NCBI GenBank assembly: GCA_002005505.1
Contig: MVGU01000981.1
Location: 151,501 to 215,500, forward strand
Length of the DNA: 64,000 bases
Direction: 5' to 3'
Source: Botryococcus braunii
Taxonomy: Eukaryota; Chlorophyta; Trebouxiophyceae
The notes beneath the pieces are model-generated. The model was not told the origin of the DNA. It saw only the letters and a program-made list of their open reading frames with translations, and made no database searches. A program made the position numbers and the translations under genes. Below, in pieces: positions 1,174-55,304 of the stretch. Numbering within the stretch: position 1 is the stretch's first letter; every line of letters begins with the position of its first letter.

Positions 1174-4100
1174 CTCCCATGCATGGCCCACACTTGCGTG
1201 GCTGGCACCACATTGTCCTTGGGCATCACAAATTGAATTCTCATCTCTAACATGTCTCTCAGGCACTGAACAGGTCCCACCCGTACAGCTCATCTCACTT
1301 GGACCATCTGCAGTCTGATCAGAGACTGCCCCCCTCTCATCTCTTACAAGTGAAACAGGTCTCTCGGTGTCCTGCCCCAATTCCTGCGCTTCCCCTGGTC
1401 CCTGTGACTCTGTGTCACCTTCAGTCATCCCCTCTCGCTCACAGCTCTCTCCCTTATCCTGTGCCAGCAGGATATCTCGAGCCGCAGTTCGTTGCTCGTA
1501 GCGTTGAGCCCGCGACAGTCCGTCCGGAGGCGGAATGGTAGTAGCCGGATGAGTGTTACGCAGTGATTGCTGTACTCGCTCTAAGATCCGTTGGTGTTGC
1601 CCGCCGTCTGCACTTCCTCGCGCCAGTCGTTGAATTGCGTCCAGAGCCCCGGACTGATCCAAGTCCGGCTGCTGTTCTCCCGTGCTTGATTCGGGAGTCA
1701 CATTGAGAATGCCCTCCTCTTGGGAAAGCTTCCCCTGACTAGCAGGCTCAGTTGCAGCCTGGTCAGAGGGTACTGGGAAGGAGCTGTCAGGTCTACTGCT
1801 GGAGCATGGGCTGCTGACAGTCTGATTCTGCGTGCTGCGCTGTGGCAATGACACCACTGGGTTGCTGCTGTGCATTGGCCCTGGTAAGTCTTCAGGGTAT
1901 GAGAACTGCTGAGGCTGGTCAGGGAGAACTGCCATTCCCACCCGAGTAGCTCCTCGAATGTGTTTTACAAATTGGACATCTCTGCTCTCTCTCCATATCC
2001 CCCCTCCCATATAGACACGGTATGCCTTTGATGCTGGAGAGTAACCAGTGAACATCCCAGCCACAGCCTTTGGTGCAAATGCCCCCCTCTGCTGATCAGG
2101 AACGTGCACAAATGCAAGGCAACCCCATGTGCGCAGCAAGGATACATCTAGTTTATATCCCATGAACATTTCGCAGGGAGATAGGGGCCTGCCTGTGCTG
2201 GGTCCCATATTTAGGAGGGTGCAGGCTGTCTCCAGGGCTTCCTTCCACATAGCAGGGCTTGCTGCAGCAAAATTGAGGAGGGTCCTGGTGCGCTCCTTGA
2301 GGGTTCTGTTGGCTCTCTCAGCAACTCCATTCTGCTGAGGGGTATATGGGGCAGATGTCTCCAGCTTAGTGCCCTGGGATGCACAAAATTCTTTGAACTT
2401 GGCATTTAAGAACTCTGTGCCTCTGTCACTGCGGATGCACTTCACTGTAGTTTCCTTCTCAGTTTGCCAATACAAAATTAGGTCTCTGACAACAGCTCCA
2501 ATTACATCTTTTGACTTCACTGGCAGCACTGCCTTCCACCCAGATGCCTCATCAGTTACAGTTACCCAAAAGCGTTCCCCAGTAATGGCTGCTGGTGATA
2601 TGGGACCCACAGTGTCAATGTGGATTCTGTCAAGGGGTTTCTCAGCAGGTCTAGAGCTTTCACCAAATGGGGGACGTGCATGCTTCCCCTCAATGCATGC
2701 TTCACAGTACTTAGGACACTTTTCACAAGGGGACATTAAGGTGTCTAGACCAGTAACCAGTTGCTCACTGCTCAGGCGTTTCATCCATGGGTCTCCTGGG
2801 TGTCCCAATCTGCTGTGCCACAGAAAACGTTTGGCACAGTCATGGCTTTGACCTTTGAAGCATTTCTTCTTCAGGGCAGCTGTCACTGAATAAGGAACCT
2901 TCACTGGTGCTACTGGGAGGCAGTTGTGAATATAATAGAGGCCATTCTCTGGTTTCACAGGCATCTGCCAACCACTCGGTCCTGAGACAGCAGTGAATGC
3001 TCCCAGTCTATATGTACTGAACCGGATTCCATCACGCAGAGCAGCAGATACTGATAGAATATTGGTGGTGGCTGAGGGAACACACTGGACATGATGCAGC
3101 CACACTGGAATATGCTGAGAGGACATGAGACACACTGACCCAGTAGCAACAATACCCCCAGTGGCATCAGATGTAGCAAGCAGCAGTGGAATAGGGTGGT
3201 CATGTACTGTAGGGGCATGCAGCAGGGAAAGGTTGTTCACAAGATGTACAGACGCTCCACTGTCCACAAGCCACGACTGTTTGGACTGTTGGTGTTTACT
3301 GCCATCCAGCACATTATAAGATACCACGTATGGCATACCTTCTGAGGGAGGAGAAGGTGGGCCTGGAGGAGGGTGCAGCAGTGGGAACGCTCCAGTGCCT
3401 GGGAATGCATGCTGCACGCTTGGAGGTGGCTGGGGTGCACCAGGAAAAAGTCCTTGGGGCCACATGGCAGCAAGTTGCTGTACAGCTGCCACCACATTGC
3501 GTTGTGTCTCTGCATCCCTTTGACGTTTGCGACAGTCTCTCCAGAAATGGCCTTTCCTGTGGCAGTAGTTGCACGTGCCCCTCACTTCTCCCCTTGATTC
3601 TGTGTCCGCTGGCTGTCTGGAGGGATTGGCCCCGCTAGTGGAAGGGGCTGGAGCAGTCTCTAGTTGAGCAGGCATTGCTTTCATCACCATGGCAGGCTGT
3701 TCTCCATCATCGTTGTAGCCAGAAGCCTCTGCAGTGGTGGAAATGAGAGCTGCCAGTTCATCCAGGGGGTAAGCTACTGCAGTTGGTAACAGCCCGGGAG
3801 GATTAGCTGCTGCTGGCAGTCCCTGCACAATCTGAGTGGCCACATGACCATCCAAGAGGTCATGGCCGTTGCGTTTCAAGCAGCTTTTGAGATTTATCAT
3901 TCTAGACACATACTGAGAGATCGTTTCTCCACGTTTCATCCCTCTTGACATTTCCTTCAGCCAGTCTGCATTGGCTTGAATGTTGTAACCACCAACAAAT
4001 TTCTTGCAAATGAACAGATATGCATCATATGCTGACGGCTTACTTGACACTTCCCCTAACCATTCCTCTGGAACTGACTCATACAGCAGAAGCATTGCAG

Positions 4101-4984: not shown

Positions 4985-5710
4985 TGTACAATTCTGGGCA
5001 TAATGTTCCCTGTATGTCCCGGCACGAAGGGTGTTAAGCTCGGTCGGGTCTCTTGCTGTGTGTAGGAGAGCAAGCAGAGCCCGACTATGTGTTGACACTT
5101 GTGGCAACTGATCAGAGATAAGCACCCGGAGTGCTCTTTCAGTCCCAAACAAGTCATTACATTGCTTCTTGCTCTCTCTCAACGCCAAGGAATTCAAACT
5201 ACCTCTTCTACGCATCGCCAGATAGTTCGCATTACCATTGTTCGATGAGCCAAGCATTAGCAACATTCTAATACGCTTATCTAGACCTCTTCCTAATCAA
5301 TTGTTCATGCAAGTTACTAAGATGCAGCACTTCACCTGTATGTCCCGGCACGAAGGGTGTTAAGCTCGGTCGGGTCTCTTGCTGTGTGTAGGAGAGCAAG
5401 CAGAGCCCGACTATGTGTTGACACTTGTGGCAACTGATCAGAGATAAGCACCCGGAGTGCTCTTTCAGTCCCAAACAAGTACCGAGCCCTTCATGCCTGC
5501 TGCCTATATCCTTTCTCGCAAGAACGCGTCAGATTGCATTACTCTCTTTCTCCGAAATGGAATCAGTCCAGATCAATTATGGCAGAACTCTAGAGTTCTG
5601 CCATCCCTTACTCAACCTCTAAGATTGTTCACAGTGATTGCTTTAGAGAAGCCTGGCCACTATTACTCTTCTGAGAGAAAGTCACTAATTGTTCTTTCAC
5701 TATTATAACA
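4985..5710 (-). repeat. A1 5' LTR, two-unit form (726 bp)
   Basis: TG...CA termini. In element orientation: TGTTATAATAG start at 5710; U3 with a perfect 22-bp palindrome at 5581-5602; TATA-like GGATATAGG at about 5503-5511; first 145-bp unit 5480-5336 ending CAG|GTGAA; spacer; second identical unit 5154-5010 ending CAG|GGAAC; U5 end TTGTACA at 4985. The interval 5335 to 5010 (326 bp) has GT...AG ends and a CTTAAC motif upstream of the acceptor. Confidence 0.85.
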
Positions 5711-5966: not shown

Positions 5967-6366
5967 TGTTATAATAGTGAAAGAACAATTAGTGACTTTC
6001 CCTCAGAAGAGTAATAGTGGCCAGGCTTCTCTAAAGCAATCACTGTGAACAATCTTAGAGGTTGAGTAATGGATGGCAGAACTCTAGAGTTCTGCCATAA
6101 TTGATCTGGACTGATTCCACTTAGGAGAAAGAGAGCAATGCAATTTGACGCGTTCTTGCGAGAAAGGATATAGAAAGCAGGCATGAAGGGCTCGGCACTT
6201 GTTTGGGACTGAAAGAGCACTCCGGGTGCTTATCTCTGATCAGTTGCCACAAGTGTCAACACATAGTCGGGCTCTGCTTGCTCTCCTACACACAGCAAGA
6301 GACCCGACCGAGCTTAACACCCTTCGTGCCGGGACATACAGGGAACATTACGCCCAGAATTGTACA
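5967..6366 (+). repeat. A2 5' LTR, single-unit form (400 bp)
   Basis: TGTTATAATAG...TTGTACA. U3 carries the conserved block CTTTCCCTCAGAAGAGTAAT (about 5996-6015) and the palindrome at 6075-6096; TATA-like GGATATAG at about 6167; one 145-bp unit 6197-6341 running directly into GGAACATT. It lacks the interval present at 26696-27023 in its own 3' LTR. Confidence 0.88.
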
Positions 6367-7834: not shown

Positions 7835-8100
7835 TGTAACGGTCTCCTTCCATATTACTAAACCAGCCTTAGATAATATCTCGAAGCCGTCACATGCAGT
7901 GGCGGGAATATTGATAGCTGGTTGTACCGGAAGGTACCCTCATTGTTCGCGCCCCTAGGCAGGGACCAGGTCGGTGCTAGGAGGGAAGGACGAAGGAAGA
8001 CGGAGATATAATGATATTCATGTAACAAGCGATTGATCCACCTGTGTCTCGCCTGTGTCTCAAGCTCTTCTCTCTCTCTTACTTGCTTCCAGTACTTACA
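7835..8100 (+). repeat. G2 5' LTR (266 bp)
   Basis: Matches 21649-21914. TATA-like TATAATG at 8007. U5 ends in a pyrimidine-rich stretch (CTCTTCTCTCTCTCTTACTTGC) then AGTACTTACA. There is no internal duplication like that of the Copia LTRs. Confidence 0.93.
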
Positions 8101-8102
8101 AT

Positions 8103-8114
8103 TGGTATTCGGCG
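8103..8114 (+). other. G2 primer-binding site
   Basis: TGGTATTCGGCG, two bases after the LTR. It resembles the TGGTATCGGCGA site of G3, E and the gag-only element, with one extra T. TGG is the complement of a tRNA CCA end. The tRNA is probably initiator Met, but I infer that. Confidence 0.6.
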
Positions 8115-8116
8115 TG

Positions 8117-11100
8117 ATGGCGACGATCAATTCCGAGGCCAACACCACCTTTTCCGCTGAGTTTGTCGACGCTCTAGCAGCTATCTTTCAGAAGAGTGAA
8201 GTGAATTGTCCATTTAGGAATGACTTGCTTAACTTCATTCAAAATCCAGACGGCTATTCCAGCCACCACAAAGGGTTAATTCTAGCATGCGCAAACAATT
8301 CGCGCACGTTCAGTAGTTGGGTGCAAAACTTTGCATCATTAGGCACAGCTTTTGTGAACACCGACAAGAACGAAGAATTTCAGCGGACAGTTAACCGACA
8401 CTTTGACAACGTGGACGCTCTGAATTTCGCTGAATGGCTCGAGGAGTCGCAGCGGCTTTACGACCAGTGGGGCAGAAGCTCGACGGACAGGGACGACCTT
8501 GATCAAGGTCCTCATGAGGAAAGCCTTTCCCCTACCTCGCATGTTAATATGCCGGTGAATATGCCTGTACCCGCTGCTACGCCCATACCTATGGAGACGG
8601 AACCACTTGCACCGGTACCTGAGCTTTTAAACTTATTGACCAAGGAAGAGTTACTGACTGTTGCGCTAACGACTAAGCCTTCGGCTGTGTCAGCCAAAAC
8701 TTGGCTATCAATGACGACCGCAGAGCGAAAAATAATGATGACCGGCGCGGACGCCACCTCTGGTACTCCCCTACCTTCGCGCTTGATTGTGGAGTCTGTT
8801 GAACCAGTTGGAACATCTACTGTTTTCACGGGTCATAAGCCCAACAGTTTTTCAAAGAATAAATACAGTGATAAGATGTTGCCTCCGCCCGAAAAATTTA
8901 CGGGAGCACTCACGGGGGTATCCATATCTTTGTTTCTGAATCAGATGCATGTATATCTATCGACACAATTAGGAATATCAACACCCATTGAACACGAGTG
9001 GGGAACATTGCTTTTTAATCATTTGGGCGGTGATGCCCTCGACCTGGTGCACGCCAGGATGGAAGCCGTAAAGCGGCCTCTAACGTGGACAGAGACTTGT
9101 TCTCTGCTGGAAAATGCGTTTGTGGATCTCTCGCACAACGCAGTGTACTTGGGAGAACAGATTGACTCCCTTACTTATAAAGATTTTGAGAATAAGGGCG
9201 GGCTTATGGCGTTCTGCCACGCTTTCCAGTCTTTGGCCACAAAGCTGGGATCTCGGAGGTCTGACGAAGACCACATTAAACATTTGTATAATGTGTTACC
9301 TGGGCGCATGTGCGCCATGCTGACTGCCAAGTTTGATTTTTCCCAGCAGGTGAAACTAACCGATGTACTCCGTGCATTACGCACTTCAAGATTTGGCCTA
9401 GAGCATCCCAACAACAACACCATTAAGGCCAAGGACTCACGGATGAGTGCAGGGCGTTTTGGCTCAAACTCACGGGGAGGTTACACTCCTCGTGGCTCCT
9501 CCGCTAATCGGGGTGATGCCTACCACTATCGTGGGGGCTACAACAACAATCGCTCTTGGCAGCGTTCGAGCGACGCAAGAGGACCAACAACACCCAACAA
9601 TCATGGCAACTTCGCCAATAGCAACCAGGACAGCAACAAACGTCGCCGTACGGCTTTTGACTTCGTAAAGGATAACAAGGTGACTTCACTTTGTGATTTC
9701 AATGCACGATTGGAGCTACTTAACTCCACTGAACTCGCCTCAGAGTTTGAAGGTTCGTGTAACTTACCCTACTCGAGCGGGCTGCGGAAATCTATCTTAG
9801 ATCCCCACACGAGTAAGCAAGAGTTTCAAAGAACTCTCAACGAACAAAACCAATTCGTAGGTATGGGCGATAACTCCCAATTTTCTCGCGTGTTTGGGTC
9901 GAAACACGAACCTGCTTTTGATATGTCAGCTTCGGGCTATGTTGCAGGCCAACTCATAACGGTCAAACTTGACACTCAAGCATCAACATCATTTCTACCA
10001 AGCCACTTGGCGCGAGCAGCGGGAGTTTGCTTGGGCGCAACGGATAAGAGCACCTCTGCTTCAGTTGCAGACGGGCATCGCCTTAATGTTTATGGCATAT
10101 ATCAGTGCCCTTTCACACTTAATGGACATAATTTAAAAGCCCAATGTGTTGTTGCTGATCTACCGGGGGACGTTTTGTATTTGGGAAGAGATTGGTTGAC
10201 AACTATGGGAGCAAAACTCGACTTCATGGATGGTTCGTTTTCATTAAGCATTGGGAAAACCAAAGTAGAATTTCAAGCTGTTGAAGAACATTCAGATTCA
10301 AATCAGACGCTCCATGCCGTGTTGTGTTCATTACAGTTAAATGGTTCTGCAGACTTGAGCCAAAGGCTTGCGTCGGCTAACCCCTTGGTGGCCGAGATAC
10401 TGACTGAGTATCAGGACTTGTTTCCTGAGAGTTTACCTGCAGGGTTACCTCCATACAGAGGGACGCAACATGTAATTGATTTGGACCCAACGATCCCAAT
10501 AAAACCTGGCTACTTGCCACGCCACTCTCCAAAGGAGAAGCAAGCGATTGAAGCAACAATTGGACAGCTGTTGGCTTTGGGGCTAATTGAGGAGAGTACA
10601 AACCCATTTTCTGCACCTGTATTACTTGTCGAAAAGAAAGATGGTTCTTTTAGAATGGTTGTTGATTATAGGAGGTTGAACGCTGCAACAATAAAAAACA
10701 ATGCTCCGATCCCCCGCTTAGATGAAACATTGGATGAACTTGCGGGTGCTAAGTATTTCACGTCTTTAGATTTACATAGTGGGTATCATCAACTTAGAAT
10801 TTCTGATCAGGATGTCCCAAAAACATCATTCAAAACACACATGGGGCAGTTCCAGTTTAAAGTCTTACCATTTGGACTTTCTAATGCTCCTGCGACTTTT
10901 CAAACTGCAATGAATAAGGTATTTGCTAAGTACTTGCACAAGTTTGTCGTGATATATTTAGATGACATCATGATTTACAGTAAAACTAAAGAGGAGCACC
11001 TGCAACACTTGAAACTTGTCATGCAGTTATTGCGAGACAATCGGTTTTATTTGAAACTGTCAAAATGTTCCTTCATGGAGACATGGACACTGTTTTTGGG

Positions 11101-12608
11101 GTTTTATGTGGGGCCAGAGGGGATCAAACCTGACCCAGCAAAAGTGGCTGCAGTGCAAGCTTGGGCTACCCCAACTTCATTGACTGACGTTAGAGCCTTC
11201 CTGGGGCTCTGCAATTTTTTCAGACGTTTTGTGCAGGGATTTACAGCACTGGCCTTGCCACTGATTCACCTCACCAAGAAGGACGTCTCATTCAAGTGGA
11301 CTGCAGCATGCCAAGAGGGGTTTGAAGGGCTTAAGGCAGCACTCACAGAAGCGCCAGTACTTCAGGCGCCTGATCCCTCCCTTCCTTATACGTTAGTTAC
11401 TGATGCATCGGGATATGGGATGGGAGCTGTCTTAATGCAAAATAGTAAACCAATTGCCTATCTATCCAAGCGATTTTCTAGTGCTGAACTCAATTATTCT
11501 GTGTCTGAGCAAGAGCTCTGTGCCACAATTTATGCGTTAAAAACATGGAGACATTATTTGGAAGGTTGTGAAGGATTAACAATTATTACAGATCATCACC
11601 CAAACACATTCTTCCAAGGCACACCAGTGCTTAGTAGGAGGCAGGCCAGGTGGTATGAAACCCTTCAGAGATTTCATTTCACTTGGAAATATGAACCCGG
11701 GCACACGAACATTGCTGATCCATTGTCAAGGTGCTCAAACCTCTTACAGCAAGTGCAGGAACACACCCTGGCTGCTATGACACGGGCCCGCAACCGTGCA
11801 GCAGCAGCCTCGGAGCCGGCACCGGACAGACACCCACGGGAAGCACCGAGCGCCACCGAGACGGCGCCATTATTAATTATTAATAAAGATAAGTTCATTC
11901 CAACGCGGATTGTGCAAAGTTCTGTCCCCGGCCCTAGTTCCGTCCGTGACCTGCACGCAACGGATCTGCCGCCCGAGTCCCCAACCCAGACGGCTGTTCC
12001 TGAAAATGTTTCGCTTGATTCCGATGTAAATATGTCAAATGACATTGAAAAGTGCCCTGTCGGAATAATTCATTCCCACAGACAACCTTTTCCCCCTGAC
12101 CAGGACCTCCGAGGACCTCCTCTGCTAAACCAACTCAAACTCGCATATGAAGCAGACCCTAAGTTTTCTTTGAATACTTTTGTTGAAGATTTGAAGTTTC
12201 ATGATGGATTTTATTGGAAAAAGGTTGCACAAGGACACGAACGCATCCTGGTGCCTTCCAACTCAAAACTGAGAGAGGCTCTCATCTCTGCCTTCCAGGA
12301 TACCCCTTCCTATGGACATATGGGGGCCAAACGAACTGCTGAAATCATAAGAAGGCATTTTACCTGGCCAGGGATGCTTGGGGAGGTCAGGCGCTTCATC
12401 AAGAGCTGTGACTCTTGCCAACGCAACAAGCCAGATGCACCTGGTCAGAAGGGGCTACTTCAGCCACTCCCTATACCAGATAAGCCCTTTGATTCTCTTT
12501 CTTTTGATTTTATAACATGTCTCCCACCCACCAATGAGGGGCACAATGCCTTGCTGGTGGTGGTGGATCGCCTCACAAAGATGTGCAGACTTATTCCATG
12601 TGACTTTC
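8117..12608 (+). CDS. G2 Gypsy Gag-Pol, 5' part (Gag, protease, RT, RNase H, integrase start)
   Basis: The start is ATG 8117, the first after the primer site (the open frame extends upstream into the LTR). Gag ends in an Arg/Gly/Asn-rich tail (RFGSNSRGGYTPRGSS... about residues 450-520) and I find no CCHC knuckle. Protease-like LDTQAS (about 618) has Gln where Gly is usual. RT has VVIYLDDIMIYSK (about 945-957); RNase H has VTDASGYGMGAVLMQ (about 1094). Integrase has the HHCC zinc region (HMGAKRTAEIIRRHFTWPG, CDSCQ, about 1400-1436) and the first core Asp (SFDFIT). B1 interrupts the frame at 12608; it resumes at 19930 without loss. Confidence 0.93.
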
Positions 12609-13336
12609 TGTAAACTTCTGTGTTCGGCGTTCCCTGTATGACCCGGCACGAGGGTGTTAAGCCCGGCGACACTCTTGTTGTGCGTAGAGAAACAAGCAGT
12701 GTCGTCTGTGAATGAAGAGACTTGACTGGCAACAGTAAAGTAGCAAACACCCGAAGTGCTTTTGATGTCCCAATCAAGTCTTACAATGCTTATTGCTTTC
12801 TCTCGTCACTCGGCAATTCAAACTACTCTATCAACAATGTTACTGATAGTCTGCATTACCAATGTCCGATGAGCTAAGCAATTACACCTTTCTATTGTAC
12901 CTTATCTAGACCCTTCCTAAACCATTGTTCATGTTCATATGATGTCCTGACAGCAGTTTACCTGTATGACCCGGCACGAGGGTGTTAAGCCCGGCGACAC
13001 TCTTGTTGTGCGTAGAGAAACAAGCAGTGTCGTCTGTGAATGAAGAGACTTGACTGGCAACAGTAAAGTAGCAAACACCCGAAGTGCTTTTGATGTCCCA
13101 ATCAAGTGCCTCAATCCTTCGAGCCAGGAGCATATAGCCTTTCGAGCAAACCGTGTCCGGTTACCTCATCCTTTCTTATTAACGTGCAATTGGTCTAGAT
13201 CGGGTCTGGCAGAACTCCTGGGTTCTGCCACTGATTACTCATTCTACTAACTGTTCTCTCTGGTAATGGAATATGATCTGGCCACTATTACTCTTCTGAG
13301 GGAAAGGCACCACAATGTTCTGTCACTATTATAACA
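12609..13336 (-). repeat. B1 3' LTR, two-unit form (728 bp)
   Basis: Element orientation: TGTTATAATAG start at 13336; inverted repeat GGCAGAAC-N6-GTTCTGCC at 13208-13229; TATATG at about 13136; first 146-bp unit 13107-12962 ending CAG|GTAAAC; spacer; second identical unit 12779-12634 ending CAG|GGAACG. The interval 12961 to 12634 is 328 bp with GT...AG ends. Polypurine tract AAAAGGCAAGGGGAAG adjoins at 13337-13352. Confidence 0.92.
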
Positions 13337-19196: not shown

Positions 19197-19924
19197 TGTA
19201 AACTTCTGTGTTCGGCGTTCCCTGTATGACCCGGCACGAGGGTGTTAAGCCCGGCGACACTCTTGTTGTGCGTAGAGAAACAAGCAGTGTCGTCTGTGAA
19301 TGAAGAGACTTGACTGGCAACGGTAAAGTAGCAAACACCCGAAGTGCTTTTGATGTCCCAATCAAGTCTTACAATGCTTATTGCTTTCTCTCGTCACTCG
19401 GCAATTCAAACTACTCTATCAACAATGTTACTGATAGTCTGCATTACCAATGTCCGATGAGCTAAGCAATTACACCTTTCTATTGTACCTTATCTAGACC
19501 CTTCCTAAACCATTGTTCATGTTCATATGATGTCCTGACAGCAGTTTACCTGTATGACCCGGCACGAGGGTGTTAAGCCCGGCGACACTCTTGTTGTGCG
19601 TAGAGAAACAAGCAGTGTCGTCTGTGAATGAAGAGACTTGACTGGCAACAGTAAAGTAGCAAACACCCGAAGTGCTTTTGATGTCCCAATCAAGTGCCTC
19701 AATCCTTCGAGCCAGGAGCATATAGCCTTTCGAGCAAACCGTGTCCGGTTACCTCATCCTTTCTTATTAACGTGCAATTGGTCTAGATCGGGTCTGGCAG
19801 AACTCCTGGGTTCTGCCACTGATTACTCATTCTACTAACTGTTCTCTCTGGTAATGGAATATGATCTGGCCACTATTACTCTTCTGAGGGAAAGGCACCA
19901 CAATGTTCTGTCACTATTATAACA
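19197..19924 (-). repeat. B1 5' LTR, two-unit form (728 bp)
   Basis: Same layout as the 3' copy shifted by 6588: inverted repeat 19796-19817; first unit 19695-19550 ending CAG|GTAAAC; second unit 19367-19222 ending CAG|GGAACG. The one difference I saw is in the second unit (A to G at about 19322, CAACGGTAAAG). Confidence 0.92.
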
Positions 19925-26320: not shown

Positions 26321-27048
26321 TGTTATAATAGTGAAAGAACAATTAGTGACTTTCCCTCAGAAGAGTAATAGTGGCCAGGCTTCTCTAAAGCAATCACTGT
26401 GAACAATCTTAGAGTTTGAGTAATGGATGGCAGAACTCTAGAGTTCTGCCATAATTGATCTGGACTGATTCCACTTAGGAGAAAGAGAGCAATGCAATTT
26501 GACGCGTTCTTGCGAGAAAGGATATAGGCAGCAGGCATGAAGGGCTCGGCACTTGTTTGGGACTGAAAGAGCACTCCGGGTGCTTATCTCTGATCAGTTG
26601 CCACAAGTGTCAACACATAGTCGGGCTCTGCTTGCTCTCCTACACACAGCAAGAGACCCGACCGAGCTTAACACCCTTCGTGCCGGGACATACAGGTGAA
26701 GTGCTGCATCTTAGTGTAACTTGCATGGACAATTGATTAGGAAGAGGTCTAGATAAGCGTATTAGAATGTTGCTAATGCTTGGCTCATCGAACAATGGTA
26801 ATACGAACTATCTGTCGATGCGTAGAAGAGGTAGTTTGAATTCCTTGGCGTTGAGAGAGAGCAAGAAGCAATGTAATGACTTGTTTGGGACTGAAAGAGC
26901 ACTCCGGGTGCTTATCTCTGATCAGTTGCCACAAGTGTCAACACATAGTCGGGCTCTGCTTGCTCTCCTACACACAGCAAGAGACCCGACCGAGCTTAAC
27001 ACCCTTCGTGCCGGGACATACAGGGAACATTACGCCCAGAATTGTACA
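26321..27048 (+). repeat. A2 3' LTR, two-unit form (728 bp)
   Basis: Preceded by the polypurine tract GGAAAAGTCAAGGGGAAG. TGTTATAATAG start; palindrome 26429-26450; GATATAGG at 26521-26528; first 145-bp unit 26551-26695 ending CAG|GTGAAG; spacer 26696-26878; second identical unit 26879-27023 ending CAG|GGAACA; ends TTGTACA. Compare the 400-bp 5' LTR, which lacks 26696-27023. Confidence 0.92.
26696..27023 (+). promoter_or_regulatory. Putative LTR-borne intron (family A reference copy)
   Basis: Begins GTGAAG after CAG and ends ACATACAG before GG. A CTTAAC branch-point-like motif lies about 33 nt upstream of the end. The interval equals spacer plus second unit, so its removal leaves one unit joined to U5, exactly the form of the A2 5' LTR. 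Splicing is inferred from sequence only. Confidence 0.5.
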
Positions 27049-31457: not shown

Positions 31458-31486
31458 GGGCCCATAACCTGTGAAAGGTTATGGGC
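31458..31486 (-). other. C1 primer-binding site with U5/PBS inverted repeat
   Basis: Primer site GGTTATGGGCCC on the element strand at 31469-31458. The last bases of U5 (31486-31477) read GCCCATAACC, the exact complement of the first ten PBS bases, separated by 7 bases (31476-31470). In RNA this would pair the primer site with U5. Confidence 0.75.
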
Positions 31487-32162
31487 AATCGGCTTTCCCT
31501 GTACAAAGCAGACAGGTCGTCAATAGACGAAGTTACTCCAGCTACAGTCCGTACGACTGTCTGCTGAGTGCCACACACAACTGTCGGACAAGACTAGCAT
31601 CTGGTGATGCCCAGCATCTTTCACAACCAGTTGGTTACATCATTATCTTGTACACAAGCACCGATCAAGCAATCACTAGATAAGGCTCTAGACGGCTACG
31701 TTCAAGTACATGCCTGTACTCCCTGAAGTCACTGTCCCTTATCTGTTTGAGTAACTACAGGGTACACTAAGCTTGTTCACTCTCACAATAGCAACAATGA
31801 TACAACACACACTGCCGCACCGTACCTGTACAAAGCAGACAGGTCGTCAATAGACGAAGTTACTCCAGCTACAGTCCGTACGACTGTCTGCTGAGTGCCA
31901 CACACAACTGTCGGACAAGACTAGCATCTGGTGATGCCCAGCATCTTTCACAACCAGTTGGTATTCACTCCGGTGGGGCAGCCTTAAGAGTTCATCCGAC
32001 AAACGTGTGATCTAGATAGGATTGTACCTTATGTTCGAAAACGTCCAGAATCTGCCGTGTCTCTAGGTACCTTATGTTCTCAATGGACCCATATCCTAAT
32101 AGTGCACACATGAAGATCACTTAAAGCACAAGGCATTCAATAATAATGTTCAGAACTCAACA
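31470..32162 (-). repeat. C1 5' LTR, two-unit form (693 bp)
   Basis: Starts TGTTGAGTTC at 32162. First unit 31962-31826 (137 bp) ending CAG|GTACGG; second unit 31635-31499 ending CAG|GGAAAG; interval 31825 to 31499 is 327 bp. No clear TATA; a TTAAGG lies about 25 bases before the first unit. The unit has hairpins GATGC-TGG-GCATC near its start and ACAGTC-GTACG-GACTGT further on. Confidence 0.88.
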
Positions 32163-35100
32163 TCTACCACTGGCTACTGGGGGCATGATCCCCATTTCAC
32201 TATCTGCCTCAACGCTGAACCAAATTTCTAATCCAACCTTGGTTCAGCCAGCTAGTGTGCAGGTACCATCCAACTTTGGAGTGTCAATGTCAGCTTCAGC
32301 AATTCCAGCTGGAGGCCCTCCTGGTGGTGGCTACCCATACAGCTCAGGCAGTGGTCCTCCTGGAGGTGGGCCACCATACAGTGGGGGTCCCCCTGGAGGA
32401 GCAAGTTCGATTTGGCATCCTCCACCAGTCTCAGGCAACTACCCGCAATACCCTGTCTATCCGGGCTCCGGTGGGAATGTTCCTGGTGGCTTTGGTGGGG
32501 GTGGTCCTGGTGGTCCTGGAGGACCAGGCGGTCCTGGTGGTCCAGGCGGTCCTGGTGGACCAGGTGGTGGTGGTTGGGGTGGTCCTCCTCATAGTCAGGG
32601 GCCACCATATAGTGCTGGGCAAGGTCAATTTCCAAGCGTAGGTATTCCTGGTCTGCCCACCATAAATCCAACCACTGGTCCTTCGTTTTCTTCTCATCAG
32701 AAGTTAACTGTAAAGATAGAGCTAGTCAAGTTAAATGATACCAATTGGTTGACATGGACAAAGCAAGTGTATGCTATGCTGTGGGAAATGAATGTCAACT
32801 ACTGTGTTCATGATGATTATCAGGGAGCTTATGATGATTTCAAAGCTCAAACTATTATCACTCAAGCATGTACTGAGCAATATTCTGTTCAGATTACTGA
32901 CTTGACAAGTGCTTACCATATGTGGAACAAGCTGCTGCAGGTGTTTAACGCTAGAGCAGCAGCTAGGCTGATGAGCCTCCACAGGGAGCAAAAGTTATTT
33001 GCCATGAAGCTAGGTGAAAAACCATCTGACTACGTGTTAAGGTGCAGGAAAATTGCAAACAACCTCAAATCACTAGGAGAGCAATGTTTTGAGGTTTGCC
33101 AGTGCTCCATGATCATTGAAGGCCTCACTGAAGAGTATGAGGTAGATAGGCGTTTACAGCTGTCTGTGTGCAACAACTATCCAAATGTGCACCAACTCCA
33201 GCATGTTCTTGAGTTAACATATATGGACCTTCAAGCAAAGAAGCCATATAATCCTCCAAACACCTCAAACCCCAAACCTTATAGGAATCAAGGTGGGGGT
33301 GGTCAGCCTGCAGGCAGGCAAGGTGGTTCAGGTGGGGCTGGTCCAGGTGCTCACCAGGCAGAAGTGCCTAAAAATACTAACCGTGAAAATTCAGGGACAG
33401 GGCAACCTGCGTTTCAACAGCAGGGAAGGCCTGTACTAATTTGCCAGTACTGCAGGAATCCAGGACACACCAAGTCAACGTGTCCTAAGCTTGCAGCACA
33501 CGAGAGGAGGGCACAAACTAATTGTGTACAAAGGGATACAGTAATTTCCCATCCTTCTCTACCTGCTTGGCTTATAGATTCAGGGTCAACTGATCACATT
33601 TCTCCTTCAAGTGACAATATGATAAATTATGTCAAGTTTGATGTGCCACAACGTCTGATTGTGGCAAATGGCAAGTCAGAGGAAATTATAGGAGAAGGTT
33701 CCATGCAAGTGTTCCTCGAGTCTGGCAGTTCCTTGTTCCTGCACAATGTCAAGCATGTTCCCTCTAGCAAGAAGTATCTTCTATCCGTGGGCAAAGATTA
33801 ATTAGATGGTATCAATGTCAATATTATGGGTATCGAGTGTTACCTTACAGATTCTAATGGGTACCATTTGGGAAATGCTGAGCATGCTTTCCCTTATCAG
33901 TGGCTGGTGGACTTAGCTCTACCAGACAAGCATGTTTCTTTTCATCCAGAAACTAAGTTTGTGGAGGCATGCAATGTTCAGGTGCTTCACAGGGATGTAG
34001 ACCTGTGGCATCAGAGGCTGGGGCACTTGTCTCCAGCCTATATGGTAAGAATGATGAAGGGAAAAATGGTCAAGGGAATGAAACTCCCCTCTTCTGATTT
34101 CTCCAATTCTATTGGTACAAAAGGTGTCTGCAGTGCCTGCTTGCATGGGAAACAAACTGTGCAACCTTTTAAACCAACAGGCACTGCTTGCACTAGTAAA
34201 CTAGAGGTTGTGCATATGGACCTTATGGGTCCAGTCTCACCAGAAACTTATGATGATGAGAAGTATGCACTTAATGTCTTAGATGAATTTTCTGAGATGT
34301 CAGCAACCATTCTACTCAAGTCAGAAGCAGATGCATCAAGAGAGGCAGTTAATTTATTGACTGAGTGGCAGACCCAGCACGAGTGCAAGGTTAAGTTTAT
34401 CAGGACCGACAATGGTACTGAGTTTTCTGGTTTAGAAAAGTTCTGCAGGAAAAATGGTGCAGTCCACCAAAAGACTGCACCATATGCCCATCAACAAAAT
34501 GGGAAAATTGAGAGGCTGAACAGGACTCTGCAGGAGAAAGCAAGAGCCATGCTGACTGCCTCGAGCCTACCTCCAGAATATTGGGGTGACTCTCTCTTAA
34601 CTGCAAACTATGTTAGGAATTTGTCTGCAGTTTCAAATCATGATAAGACCCCATTTGAGATGTGGTTTGGCACTGTTCCTGATGTCAGTCACTTACGTGT
34701 TTTTGGGAGCAAGTGTCATGTCGTGATTGAAAAGTCCAAAAGGGATGGTAAATTTAGCCCTGTCAGTAAGGAGGGTATTTTCTTGGGCTATGATGGGCAC
34801 AGCAAGAATTATCGTGTTCTCATAGATTCCAAAGTCACAGTGTGTGCAAGACAATTTGTCAAGTTTGAGGAGGCTTTGTCTGATGATGATGAAATGCCTG
34901 ATCTCCTTGATGTGGTGAATGAAGAAGAGGATTTTCCTGTAGATTCTGAAACTGCAATCAATGGAGAAGATGTGCATGAAACTTCTGAAGATTTGTCTCC
35001 TGTTTCTTTTGCCCCTTTGGGCACTGATCCAAGTGTCATAAGGTTTGATCAATTAAACCTTGAAAGGGCTAAGTTCATAAGTCAAGATAATGCTAACCTT

Positions 35101-35642: not shown

Positions 35643-36549
35643 TGTTAGAAAAATGGACACTAACATGTATACCTTAGGTATTTCTTCAACATGTTGGGTC
35701 ATTTCATATTAGCATGTTTGTGAGCCACATCAATTCATTTCAAGGGTTTGTAATACTTATAATACATATAAACAATAAGGTACAGTCATATCTCACTTGG
35801 GTGTGTTCGTACTGTATGGTACTTTAAGGGTAAAAGACACTCATAGTGGTTTATAGAGGCCCTGGTACAATTTCGGCCTGTTTTCTGCCAGTTTTCTACG
35901 AAGGTATACTTGTTCCGGATCTCATCGATCGTGAGACTTTAAGTCCTGCGGTCTTTGGTGTTTGATTCGAGGTTCGTGTCGGTGGTGAGTTAAAGTTCCG
36001 GGTCACTTAGATTCGAGACTATCATCGACCGAGATTCGCACTGTTCATCGACGACTATGTCGAATCATGAGGTACATTGAAATTCCAGTGCATAGTACTG
36101 ATGGCATGCAAACTTGATCGTGCCCGTACGCTTTTAAGATCTGGAGTTGCAAACCTGTCAGGAGGCTAATAAATGTTTAGTCTCCCTAGTTAGTATAAAT
36201 AGGAAGTGCTCAAAGGGTCAGTCAGTCTTGAGTTCCCTTATCAAGCTCCTGTCCCGTTTGCTTGGTCGTGTTTCGTCCACTTCTACAAGCTTTTGTTTGG
36301 GTACAGTTCACTTACTCTAAAAGAGTGTGAGTTACAGGTAATTGCAACATCATTAGATTAGTTGTTATTGTAACAAGTCTTGAGTTCCCTTATCAAGCTC
36401 CTGTCCCGTTTGCTTGGTCGTGTTTCGTCCACTTCTACAAGCTTTTGTTTGGGTACAGTTCACTTACTCTAAAAGAGTGTGAGTCACAGGGATTTATGTT
36501 CCAATTCCAAATTCTACAAATTCTGTTTTGATGATGCCATTATGCTAAA
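35643..36549 (+). repeat. E LTR shared by E1 and E2 (approximate ends), two-unit form
   Basis: Begins about TGTTAGAAAA (35643) and ends before the primer site at 36550; neither end is confirmed by a second copy and no polypurine tract is clear. TATAAAT at 36194-36200. A 114-bp unit 36224-36337 ends CAG|GTAATT; after 38 bp it recurs at 36376-36489, ending CAG|GGATTT. The unit starts 30 bases after the TATA box, where transcription should begin. Confidence 0.65.
36338..36489 (+). promoter_or_regulatory. Putative LTR-borne intron (family E, 152 bp)
   Basis: GTAATT start after CAG, CTTAC branch-like motif about 30 nt before the end, and CACAG|GG acceptor. Same logic as in families A-D although the sequences are unrelated. 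Removal leaves a single unit joined to the leader. Inferred from sequence only. Confidence 0.5.
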
Positions 36550-36903: not shown

Positions 36904-38132
36904 ATGAGTGGTACATATACTGTGCCACCCTATGCTAACGTCGAAGAATCTTATGAAGTACCCATTGTCATTGAGGATGATCCCTCAAACGTTTATAACA
37001 ATGCAAGCTTCGAACAATCTTATTCTACTCAAGGAGACTCAAGGGGCTACACCTCTAGTGCAGGTGCAGGTGCCAACAGCTCAACGGAGGACAGTGAAGC
37101 TGAGGGGCGCCACGCAGGGGAGGTAAGTGATGAGTATCTATACGGGGATTATGATCACTCAGAGTCTCTTCCTGCTGACCTTGCTGGTCAACCTCTAGCT
37201 GTATCTGCTCCTGCTGTAAGCTCAGGCATCTCTCCTCCTAGTGGTATGCCTTCCAACCTCCCTTTAGATCCTAGCAGTGTCAGAAGAGCAGTCAGGATTA
37301 ATCCTGTTCCTGTTTCAAGCGCTCCTAGGGTTCTGCGCAGACCTTCACAGTCTGCAGTTTCAGGGTCCAGGACACTTACTAGTGGTCCTTTACAAGTTCC
37401 CGTTTCACAATATCCTGCTGTGACAGTCCAGCCAGCTAGTGTTCCAGTTATTACTAGTGGCGCAATAGTTCCAGCAACATCAGTAGCTAGTGCACAGGCA
37501 ACTGTTTATCTACCACTGGCTACTGGGGGCATGATCCCCATTTCACTACCTGCCTCAACGCTGAACCAAATTTCTAATCCAACCTTGGTTCAGCCAGCTA
37601 GTGTGCAGGTACCATCCAACTTTGGAGTGTCAACGTCAGCTTCAGCAATTCCAGCTGGAGGCCCTCCTGGTGGTGGCTACCCATACAGCTAAGGCAGTGG
37701 TCCTCCTGGAGGTGGGCCACCATACAGTGGGGGTCCCCCTGGAGGAGCAAGTTCGATTTGGCATCCTCCACCAGTCTCAGGCAACTACCCGCAATACCCT
37801 GTCTATCCGGGCTCTGGTGGGAATGTTCCTGGTGGCTTTGGTGGGGATGGTCCTGGTGGTCCTGGAGGACCAGGCGGTCCTGGTGGTCCAGGCGGTCCTG
37901 GTGGACCAGGTGGTGGTGGTTGGGGTGGTCCTCCTCATAGTCAGGGGCCACCATATAGTGCTAGGCAAGGTCAATTTCCAAACGTAGGTATTCCTGGTCT
38001 GCCCACCATAAATCCAACCACTGGTCCTTCGTTTTCTTCTCATCAGAAGTTAACTCCAAAGATAGAGCTGGTCAAGTTAAATGATACCAATTGGTTGACA
38101 TGGACAAAGCAAGTGTATGCTATGCTGTGGGA
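36904..38132 (+). pseudogene. E2 Copia Gag N-terminal part, nonsense codon, cut by B3
   Basis: Starts MSGTYTVPPYANVEESYEVP; the first 260 residues are Ser/Pro/Val-rich and of low complexity. TAA at 37690-37692 replaces the Ser codon seen in E1 (YPYSSGSG). The frame then continues through the GGP-repeat to WLTWTKQVYAMLWEI, where B3 is inserted (target about GAAAT). It supplies the Gag N-terminus not visible for E1. Confidence 0.85.
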
Positions 38133-38340
38133 AATTGTTATAATAGTGACTGAACATTTTGGTGCCTTTCCCTCAGAAGAGTAATAGTGGCCAGATCAGC
38201 TCCAATTACCAGTGAGACCACTTATTAAAGTGAGTAATAGGTGGCAGAACCTAGGAGTTCTGCCAGAACCAATCTAAACCAATTGCACGTTAATAAGAGA
38301 GGATGAGGTAATCAGACACGGTTTGCTCGAAAGGATATAT
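38133..38340 (+). repeat. B3 5' LTR, first part (U3)
   Basis: TGTTATAATAGTGAC start as in B1; conserved block CTTTCCCTCAGAAGAGTAAT (about 38166-38185); inverted repeat GGCAGAAC-N6-GTTCTGCC at 38243-38264; ends in GGATATAT, the TATA region into which C2 inserted. Confidence 0.88.
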
Positions 38341-39034
38341 TGTGAAAGGTTATGGGCAATCGGCTTTCCCTGTACAAAGCAGACAGGTCGTCAATAGACG
38401 AAGTTACTCCAGCTACAGTCCGTACGACTGTCTGCTGAGTGCCACACACAACTGTAGGACAAGACTAGCATCTGGTGATGCCCAGCATCTTTCACAACCA
38501 GTTCCGTTACATCATTATCTTGTACACAAGCACCGATCAAGCAATCACTAGATAAGGCTCTAGACGGCTACGTTCAAGTACATGCCTATACTCCCTGAAG
38601 TCACTGTCCCTTATCTGTTTGAGTGACTACAGGGTACACTAAGCTTGTTCACTCTCACAATAGCAACAATGATACAACACACACTGCCGCACCGTACCTG
38701 TACAAAGCAGACAGGTCGTCAATAGACGAAGTTACTCCAGCTACAGTCCGTACGACTGTCTGCTGAGTGCCACACACAACTGTAGGACAAGACTAGCATC
38801 TGGTGATGCCCAGCATCTTTCACAACCAGTTGGTATTCACTCCGGTGGGGCAGCCTTAAGAGTTCATCCGACAAACGTGTGATCTAGATAGGATTGTACC
38901 TTATGTTCGAAAACGTCCAGAATCTGCCGTGTCTCAAGGTACCTTATGTTCTCAATGGACCCATATCCTAATAGTGCACACATGAAGATCACTTAAAGCA
39001 CAAGGCATTCAATAATAATGTTCAGAACTCAACA
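38341..39034 (-). repeat. C2 3' LTR, two-unit form (694 bp)
   Basis: First unit 38834-38698 ending CAG|GTACGG; second unit 38503-38370 ending CAG|GGAAAG; interval 38697 to 38370 is 328 bp. At the outer edge the two units differ (TTGGT against TTCCG). Polypurine tract GGCAAGGGGAAG adjoins at 39035-39046. Confidence 0.9.
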
Positions 39035-42324: not shown

Positions 42325-43019
42325 TGTTAGGTTATGGGCTTGGCGTATTCCTGTGTGGTGGCAGCACGGAGGGTGTTAGACCAGTGTCGGCTCTACTGTG
42401 CGAAGAGAAGTAGAGAAGGAGACACTGTCAATCAAGGACTGATTGGCAACGTGAGTGAAGCACCCGAAGTGCTGTGATAGTCCCAATCAAGTCTATTACA
42501 ACATGCACTCTATCACTCTCGTAACAACGGAATTCAAACTACCCTAGTCTGTTCTCACTCAGTTATGGGCAGTCTCATTGTCCGATGAACAGAAAGTCAA
42601 GCACATACACCTAACATGATAAACTAAAAGCATTCAGAGCCTCAAACAAGCTATCCTAACTACACACACATTACCTGTGTGGTGGCAGCACGGAGGGTGT
42701 TAGACCAGTGTCGGCTCTACTGTGCGAAGAGAAGTAGAGAAGGAGACACTGTCAATCAAGGACTGATTGGCAACGTGAGTGAAGCACCCGAAGTGCTGTG
42801 ATAGTCCCAATCAAGTGCCTTGCCTTGCTGCGCAGCCACCACTACCTTCTTGCAACAAACGTGTGTGTAACTTGCGTTATCGCTATCCACATTCAAATGT
42901 ACATAACCTAGTGCTGAGTCACGTCTCTGCCCTATTTGTCTTGTATTATTGTCTCTGGCGGAATTGCCAATATTACTCCTCTGAGGGAAAGGCACTAAAT
43001 ATTATTATCTATTACAACA
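42325..43019 (-). repeat. D 3' LTR, two-unit form (695 bp)
   Basis: First 142-bp unit 42816-42675 ending CAG|GTAATG; second identical unit 42492-42351 ending CAG|GAATAC; interval 42674 to 42351 is 324 bp. CTAAC lies about 30 nt upstream of each CAG. The U3 block CTTTCCCTCAGAGGAGTAAT is shared with A and B; no clear TATA. Polypurine tract AAAAGGCAAGGGGAAG adjoins. Confidence 0.9.
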
Positions 43020-51365: not shown

Positions 51366-51392
51366 GGGCCCATAACCTGTTAGGTTATGGGC
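51366..51392 (-). other. D primer-binding site with U5/PBS inverted repeat
   Basis: Primer site GGTTATGGGCCC (continuing CACCAC) at 51377-51366. U5 end 51392-51383 reads GCCCATAACC, complementary to the first ten PBS bases, with a 5-base loop (51382-51378). Confidence 0.75.
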
Positions 51393-52072
51393 TTGGCGTA
51401 TTCCTGTGTGGTGGCAGCACGGAGGGTGTTAGACCAGTGTCGGCTCTACTGTGCGAAGAGAAGTAGAGAAGGAGACACTGTCAATCAAGGACTGATTGGC
51501 AACGTGAGTGAAGCACCCGAAGTGCTGTGATAGTCCCAATCAAGTCTATTACAACATGCACTCTATCACTCTCGTAACAACGGAATTCAAACTACCCTAG
51601 TCTGTTCTCACTCAGTTATGGGCAGTCTCATTGTCCGATGAACGGAAAGTCAAGCACATACACCTAACATGATAAACTAAAAGCATTCAGAGCCTCAAAC
51701 AAGCTATCCTAACTACACACACATTACCTGTGTGGTGGCAGCACGGAGGGTGTTAGACCAGTGTCGGCTCTACTGTGCGAAGAGAAGTAGAGAAGGAGAC
51801 ACTGTCAATCAAGGACTGATTGGCAACGTGAGTGAAGCACCCGAAGTGCTGTGATAGTCCCAATCAAGTGCCTTGCCTTGCTGCGCAGCCACCACTACCT
51901 TCTTGCAACAAACGTGTGTGTAACTTGCGTTATCGCTATCCACATTCAAATGTACATAACCTAGTGCTGAGTCACGTCTCTGCCCTATTTGTCTTGTATT
52001 ATTGTCTCTGGCGGAATTGCCAATATTACTCCTCTGAGGGAAAGGCACTAATTATTATTATCTATTACAACA
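51378..52072 (-). repeat. D 5' LTR, two-unit form (695 bp)
   Basis: First unit 51869-51728 ending CAG|GTAATG; second unit 51545-51404 ending CAG|GAATAC; interval 324 bp. The spacing is identical to the 3' copy. Confidence 0.92.
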
Positions 52073-54414: not shown

Positions 54415-55108
54415 TGTGAAAGGTTATGGGCAATCGGCTTTCCCTGTACAAAGCAGATAGGTCGTCAATAGACGAAGTTACTCCAGCTACAGTCCGTACG
54501 ACTGTCTGCTGAGTGCCCCACACAACTGTAGGACAAGACTAGCATCTGGTGATGCCCAGCATCTTTCACAACCAGTTCCGTTACATCATTATCTTGTACA
54601 CAAGCACCGATCAAGCAATCACTAGATAAGGCTCTAGACGGCTACGTTCAAGTACATGCCTATACTCCCTGAAGTCACTGTCCCTTATCTGTTTGAGTGA
54701 CTACAGGGTACACTAAGCTTGTTCACTCTCACAATAGCAACAATGATACAACACACACTGCCGCACCGTACCTGTACAAAGCAGACAGGTCGTCAATAGA
54801 CGAAGTTACTCCAGCTACAGTCCGTACGACTGTCTGCTGAGTGCCACACACAACTGTAGGACAAGACTAGCATCTGGTACTGCCCAGCATCTTTCACAAC
54901 CAGTTGGTATTCACTCCGGTGGGGCAGCCTTAAGAGTTCATCCGACAAACGTGTGATCTAGATAGGATTGTACCTTATGTTCGAAAACGTCCAGAATCTG
55001 CCGTGTCTCAAGGTACCTTATGTTCTCAATGGACCCATATCCTAATAGTGCACACATGAAGATCACTTAAAGCACAAGGCATTCAATAATAATGTTCAGA
55101 ACTCAACA
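54415..55108 (-). repeat. C2 5' LTR, two-unit form (694 bp)
   Basis: First unit 54908-54772 ending CAG|GTACGG; second unit 54577-54444 ending CAG|GGAAAG; interval 54771 to 54444. Flanked right by TATAT. Confidence 0.9.
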
Positions 55109-55113
55109 TATAT

Positions 55114-55304
55114 GCTCCTCGAAGGGTTGAGGCACTTGATTGGGACATCAAAAGCACTTCGGGTGTTTGCTACTTCACTGTTGCCAGTCAAGTCATCGCA
55201 TTCACAGTCGACACTGCTTGTTACTCGACACACAACAAGAGTGTCGCCGGGCTAAACACCCTCGTGCCGGGTCATACAGGGAACGCCGAACTCAGAAGTT
55301 TACA
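55114..55304 (+). repeat. B3 5' LTR, second part, single-unit form
   Basis: With 38133-38340 this gives a 399-bp LTR. One 146-bp unit 55134-55279 runs straight into GGAACGCC; the GTAAAC...CAG interval of B1 is absent. Ends AGTTTACA. Confidence 0.85.

Follow-up and report, generated by a model that had tools for sequence, protein, structure and literature searches.

How could an intron persist in an element that is copied through its own spliced RNA? Copying by way of spliced RNA should remove introns, and processed copies are recognised in this manner. The question is raised by a 64,000-nucleotide stretch of the genome of Botryococcus braunii (the window, in what follows), which is a nest of LTR retrotransposons in which two-unit LTRs of Ty1/copia elements contain one segment twice in direct orientation. 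Such a two-unit LTR has the order U3 - unit 1 - spacer - unit 2 - U5, and the spacer and unit 2 together have the ends of an intron. On the sequence comparisons presented here, it is probable that these elements carry, wholly within the LTR, a leader intron that reverse transcription through spliced RNA rebuilds. The LTRs of the window are listed below, with predicted introns.

26321..27048, plus strand: family A two-unit LTR, the 3' LTR, with AAGGGGAAG directly before it; U3 26321-26550, unit 1 26551-26695, U5 27024-27048; predicted intron 26696-27023, consisting of spacer 26696-26878 and unit 2 26879-27023
5967..6366, plus strand: family A one-unit LTR, the 5' LTR of the same insertion as 26321; unit 6197-6341; primer site from 6367
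4985..5710, minus strand: second family A two-unit LTR; unit 1 5336-5480, unit 2 5010-5154, predicted intron 5010-5335
12609..13336, minus strand: family B 3' LTR; unit 1 12962-13107, unit 2 12634-12779, predicted intron 12634-12961
19197..19924, minus strand: family B 5' LTR; unit 1 19550-19695, unit 2 19222-19367, predicted intron 19222-19549
31470..32162, minus strand: family C 5' LTR (C1); unit 1 31826-31959, unit 2 31499-31632, predicted intron 31499-31825
38341..39034, minus strand: family C 3' LTR; unit 1 38698-38831, unit 2 38370-38503, predicted intron 38370-38697
54415..55108, minus strand: family C 5' LTR; unit 1 54772-54905, unit 2 54444-54577, predicted intron 54444-54771
42325..43019, minus strand: family D 3' LTR; unit 1 42675-42816, unit 2 42351-42492, predicted intron 42351-42674
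51378..52072, minus strand: family D 5' LTR; unit 1 51728-51869, unit 2 51404-51545, predicted intron 51404-51727
35643..36518, plus strand: family E LTR, with its ends inferred; unit 1 36224-36337, unit 2 36376-36489, predicted intron 36338-36489
55110..55304, plus strand: B-like one-unit 5' LTR, its U3 truncated by a family C insertion; unit 55134-55279; primer site from 55305

The assignment to Ty1/copia is based on the reading frame of family B, in which the integrase lies upstream of RVT_2 (gag_pre-integrs 523-571, rve 586-685, SH3_retrovirus 745-812, RVT_2 1256-1343), and the frames of D and E that were scanned also contain gag_pre-integrs, rve and SH3. The LTRs have TG...CA ends, the primer site GGTTATGGGCCC stands directly 3' of the 5' LTRs in families A, B, C and D and in two further families, F and G, from outside the window, and the polypurine tract AAGGGGAAG stands directly 5' of the 3' LTRs in A-D and G; in family E neither a primer site nor a polypurine tract was identified, and the LTR ends were taken from TG...CA. 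The positions of these two sites place families B, C and D and the first A copy on the minus strand. The primer site presumably fits the anticodon half of the initiator tRNA-Met, as in Drosophila copia. Among the elements of the window, the result for target-site duplication covers the A insertion 5967-27048, which is flanked by the short duplication CTAGC, before 5967 and after 27048. A Penelope-like element (a PLE-type reverse transcriptase with GIY-YIG endonuclease, and pLTRs) was considered and is ruled out by the copia-type RVT_2, rve and gag-pre-integrase of family B. Searches of IMG/VR for related elements returned one 39% fragment in one case and none in another.

The sequence-only reading had listed ten intervals as apparent introns flanked by direct repeats of 114-146 bp. 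All ten are GT...AG on the strand of the element, and all have the form CAG/GT...CAG/G; the unit lengths are likewise confirmed, at 145 bases in A, 146 in B, 134 in C, 142 in D and 114 in E. The U5 that follows is only 25-29 bases long (in E by its inferred end). Predicted introns measure 328 bases in A (326 in the first copy), 328 in B, 327-328 in C, 324 in D and 152 in E. The constancy of length that had been claimed, 324-328 bp, holds in A-D and breaks down in families F and G, with periods of 333 and 482; GT...AG with plausible donor and acceptor context is found in these two families also. Towards the 3' end of the predicted intron, the branch-like motifs reported earlier for A, B, D and E (CTTAAC, CTAAC or CTTAC) were found in all four, starting 27-29 nt before the intron end, while family C has instead TTGAC at 25 and GTAAC at 38 nt.

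At the opposite edge, the TATA-like box said to lie 28-30 bases 5' of unit 1 in A, B and E is clear in all three; C and F have TTAA only, a weak TATA-like box, 28-29 bp 5' of unit 1. By eye, no TATA-like box is visible 5' of the unit in the reference LTRs of D and G, nor before unit 2 in any of the seven reference LTRs. Unit 1 starts with A after C or T in 7/7 of these LTRs, and the base preceding unit 2 is G in six and A in E; both units end in CAG, and the next bases are GTR in the case of unit 1 and G in that of unit 2. The first copy of family C (C1, 31470-32162) has ACC before unit 2, as before unit 1, where the other two copies (C2 and C3) have CGG; this could be what a transcript begun three bases upstream would write, and plain mutation also fits. 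These positions support a reading of the unit as an exon 1, extending from a start-site-like position to a splice donor and copied in front of the acceptor. The tract edges fall at start-site-like and splice sites, and a cDNA of a spliced leader would give both, where a duplication of DNA has no reason to.

Folding predicted for the RNA of five units (A, B, B-like, D and L019) places a stem at the very 5' end, beginning with base 1, and its outermost pair is kept in four of the five. A second hairpin (columns 76-114) has 13 pairs, of which six are kept by two-sided changes among these five A/B/D-type units and six are lost in one or more of the sequences, chiefly in D, with a small covariation term (-0.16); the analysis uses five sequences with their relatedness uncontrolled. 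On this folding model, the leader RNA that the unit encodes may be structured.

Further evidence comes from the way in which the two units change. Within the reference LTRs they do not differ in A, B, C, D, F and G and differ by one base in E, yet between related families the units differ by 24-32%, the strong divergence that had been noted at the outset. A set of 44 unit pairs was compared against one reference per family; it comprises the A loci (selected by exact unit 1), four small A loci from a search with the spacer, one further A LTR of the window and 13 pairs of families B-G, and excludes the cut-off pair of L019. Variants that distinguish insertions sit in both units (59G>A in A, 48T>G in C, 66del and 85A>G in F, 53C>A and 110G>C in G). 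Bases at which the two units of an LTR disagree are private changes, apart from two exceptional or doubtful cases: in an old G copy (L032:4129-4760) only one of the units carries 110G>C, an insertion-variable site, and the units of L019 differ at one of 29 visible bases, unit 2 matching related one-unit LTRs.

A comparison of 29 LTRs from 21 A insertions points the same way. In the 183-base spacer 15 variants, and in U3 13, are common to at least two insertions; in unit 2 of the same LTRs one variant is common to insertions, and it is also in unit 1, while seven are singletons. No insertion-shared variant of unit 2 that unit 1 lacks was found in this set, and mutation does reach unit 2, given the seven singletons, one of which is a gap at the last base. 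Constraint may be stronger on the unit than on the spacer, and the loci L001-L030 were chosen by exact unit 1, so that this test is mostly preselected. LTRs were paired into insertions by our own judgement, and the count drops L017 (the same place as 26321 in the window), L015 (which has no full U3) and L003, whose downstream flank shares its first 40 bases with that of L013 and which is probably the L013 insertion again, represented on another contig; L016, L018, L024 and L026 stand outside the set, having one unit, being cut off or being the window's own copies. When L003 is retained the set holds 30 LTRs, 22 insertions and 17 spacer variants; Fisher's test of shared against single variants, spacer against unit 2, gives p = 0.03, and the expectation based on rates is 15 inherited unit-2 variants, a figure that includes two within one insertion.

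More weight is carried by site 59 across the genome, because that test is unselected, in contrast to the A loci picked by exact unit 1 and open to the effect of constraint. Among the 83 two-unit LTRs recovered with exact anchors, 67 have G in both units and 16 have A in both, with no G/A and no A/G; the exact patterns miss L008, which has 59G>T in unit 2. If the units were inherited separately, a single lineage would have had to undergo the same change two times and leave no intermediate behind. The two units are homogenised on the time-scale of replication. The earlier proposal of a self-duplicating leader intron is supported in that both units are kept alike by copying, as seen in the co-variation, in site 59 and in the A insertions; for the two refinements offered with it, a recursive splice point and, in particular, a regulated intron, nothing in the analysis provides support.

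Of the routes that could homogenise the units, the one that fits best, we infer, leads through spliced RNA. In the 5' LTR, transcription would begin where unit 1 does, on its first base, as the tract edge, the pyrimidine-A start and the TATA-like boxes suggest, and the junctions indicate that the leader would be spliced from CAG/GT at the end of unit 1 to CAG/G at the end of unit 2. The spliced product would consist of exon 1 (that is, the unit), 25-29 nt of U5 and the primer site. The synthesis of a minus-strand strong-stop cDNA is established biology of LTR elements, and on the spliced RNA this cDNA would comprise U5 and unit 1. At the first strand transfer its unit would anneal to unit 2 of an unspliced 3' LTR, which would require the RNA to reach at least into unit 2 of that LTR, and extension through the spacer, unit 1 and U3 would then yield a progeny LTR with both units and the intron. 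In every cycle unit 2 would thus be rewritten from unit 1, if the direction of copying is as proposed. Landing on unit 1 would give a one-unit LTR, and an unspliced strong-stop landing on unit 2 would give one with three units.

Both by-products expected from such mis-landing exist. The genome-wide survey for paired units envisaged in the sequence-only reading was carried out on the 176 Mb assembly with exact A/B-type junctions and returned 383 two-unit LTRs (U3-unit-GT), 41 one-unit LTRs (U3-unit-GG) and two three-unit places (spacer-unit-GT), counts which may include some insertions twice, on separate contigs, and which miss copies with changed anchors or in N stretches. Both three-unit places matched again with a longer spacer end. 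In the window, the insertion 5967-27048 has a one-unit 5' LTR and a two-unit 3' LTR whose difference is exactly the predicted intron and a few substitutions; at 5967..6366 U3, one unit and U5 are joined exactly as expected of the spliced form. One-unit LTRs equal the predicted spliced product, and ordinary deletion between direct repeats could also make them.

Several one-unit LTRs occur in pairs 6.3-6.6 kb apart (e.g., on C5, C44, C153, C162 and C477), which look like elements with both LTRs of the one-unit type. Spacings of neighbouring places in the C/F group fall into two classes about 328 bases apart: 22 same-strand neighbour pairs among the matches listed, taken by eye and excluding a pair on C113 that is separated by 691 bases, comprise 14 at 5977-6053, seven at 6312-6361 and one at 5083. 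Spacing only was used for this group, whose junction pattern (203 places) does not separate one-unit LTRs from second units that follow C. One-unit elements therefore seem to propagate on their own, judging by these spacings, and the existence of several elements whose LTRs both appear to have one unit would mean that the intron is not essential for transposition. Such dispensability is allowed by the spliced-RNA model and left unexplained by it. A bias of one-unit LTRs towards the 5' position was considered, the first three having been 5' LTRs (5967, L026 and the B-like 55110); it is contradicted by the symmetric elements and by an element on C16 that has, by position, a two-unit 5' and a one-unit 3' LTR, the reverse of the A element in the window. 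On C415 and C721, one-unit A-type LTRs repeat at a spacing of about 3.75 kb, where 6.3 kb is usual, and may represent a tandem array of a non-autonomous derivative with one unit.

The main rival to the route through spliced RNA is template jumping on unspliced RNA, in which the enzyme would jump from unit 2 to unit 1 during strong-stop synthesis and the shortened cDNA would land on unit 2 of the 3' LTR. This is an unlikely explanation, although it needs nothing beyond known switching between direct repeats and predicts the same start edge (the RNA 5' end), the 41 one-unit LTRs and concerted evolution; asymmetric LTRs are also known to arise in retroviruses (PMC9278108, in excerpt). What it leaves unexplained is the other edge, that is, the form CAG/GT...CAG/G in 10/10 intervals of the window and the branch-like motif in A, B, D and E. 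Moreover, a jump would rewrite only the 5' part of unit 2, so that inherited differences near its 3' end should persist, and none are seen in the 21 A insertions, most of them loci chosen by exact unit 1.

It is distinctly improbable that the units are homogenised on the chromosome after insertion, by gene conversion or unequal recombination between them and with no role for RNA. LTRs with one, two and three units, all of which are seen, would indeed be produced in this way, but reciprocal exchange predicts equal gains and losses where one-unit and three-unit LTRs stand at 41 to 2, the old copy at L032:4129-4760 retains differences between its units, so that conversion is not evident on a resident copy, and the edges would have no reason to match start-site-like and splice sites. 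Weakest of all, with hardly any probability left to it, is an old tandem duplication that made a spliceable intron, its units alike through strong selection on both or through recency: tandem duplication has been reported to give rise to introns (PMC4974935, in excerpt) and the unit may be a structured leader under selection, but selection does not make two copies change alike, the joint change of alleles in both units already contradicts it, related families have diverged where the units of one LTR have not, and the duplication looks older than the families.

This last point rests on the relations between families. Units are 76% identical between A and B, 68% between A and D, 73% between B and D and 76% between C and F; A, B and D are thus mutually related, C is related to F, and G and E lie hardly above the level of shuffled sequences, so that the arrangement occurs in about four groups. 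The spacers of A, B and D align at 59-73% identity (shuffled units give about 50%), and because they remain alignable the pairing of units seems to predate the separation of these three families. Tandem duplication as the creator of the intron, as first suggested, may therefore account for its origin at most.

Families F and G come from a sample made up of one 10 kb stretch from each of contigs 1-20, always at the same contig position, in which 45,279 of 200,000 bases are N. The sample added three clear paired-unit LTRs with the same junctions, in L044 (family F) and in L032 and L036 (family G), and one decayed paired-unit LTR, the old G copy already mentioned. L019 contains another two-unit LTR of A/B-like type, truncated within unit 2, with the donor GTT and not GTR. 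Nine LTRs of the window and the sample are followed by exact GGTTATGGGCCC, seven with two units and two with one. In L033, at 2805-3186, there is also a 78% repeat with GTACAGG.

From the combined sequence evidence we lean towards a broader statement, namely that an LTR element replicates through spliced RNA and keeps its intron by means of a duplicate of the first exon upstream of the acceptor, an arrangement that would be heritable and self-restoring, would be long-lived in at least three or four copia groups and would have one-unit lineages as its escape products. To keep an intron by rewriting a copy of the first exon would be a new way for an element copied through RNA, and searches of the open-licence literature listed no report of an LTR element that regains its intron by way of a duplicated first exon.

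The known systems, here compared on the basis of portions of the cited reports, resemble the present elements in part. The barley Ty1/copia element BARE1 likewise has an intron, CAG/GT...CAG/GA, that is spliced, and it forms separate pools of RNA; this intron lies in the internal region, where gag ends, and only the unspliced RNA is held to replicate (PMC3735527), whereas in the present elements the intron would lie within the LTR and the spliced RNA would serve as template. In foamy viruses a splice donor lies in the R region of the LTR, the transcribed part near the RNA 5' end, but the one acceptor placed in that portion of the report lies in the gag frame and not in the LTR, and a duplicated R is not mentioned there (PMC3185757). 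In split-intron retroviral vectors a splice donor in the 3' LTR is copied to the 5' LTR by reverse transcription; these are engineered, their acceptor lies 3' of the packaging signal, and the portion cited describes neither a duplicated first exon nor an intron restored from spliced RNA (PMC3182074). Penelope-like elements keep introns through retrotransposition and are contrasted by the authors with all other types of retrotransposon in dispersing intron-containing genes; they belong to another class, and retention is attributed, hypothetically, to self-priming on an antisense template (PMC3846280). A tandem genomic duplication in a potato gene likewise creates an intron, as a single recent event for which the excerpt mentions no continuing homogenisation (PMC4974935).

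If the proposal is true, a spliced RNA that rebuilds its own intron breaks the rule of intron loss for LTR elements. The insertions would then be a natural record of which form of RNA is reverse-transcribed, with the start site and the splice site marked in genomic DNA alone, and where the first strand transfer chooses to land, an old question, would become testable from the sequences of insertions.

Some further features of these elements were observed. In the LTR end of C, D and F, GCCCATAACC (31470-31500, 51378-51400, 54415-54440 and L044:5910-5935) is complementary to GGTTATGGGC (primer site directly 3'), and a hairpin at this U5/primer junction, predicted from the sequence, could mask the primer site. 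The LTRs at 35643-36518 and in L022 have element sequence on both flanks, with the end of pol or a polypurine tract 5' and a primer site or gag-like frame 3', apparently as tandem elements that share one LTR; in the same context, 98.4% identity is shared by the copies at 32162-32789 and 37508-38135. Finally, the span of the split family A insertion contains, at 8015-12613, a Ty3/gypsy-like open frame of 1532 residues with RVT_1, RNase H and an H2C2 integrase.
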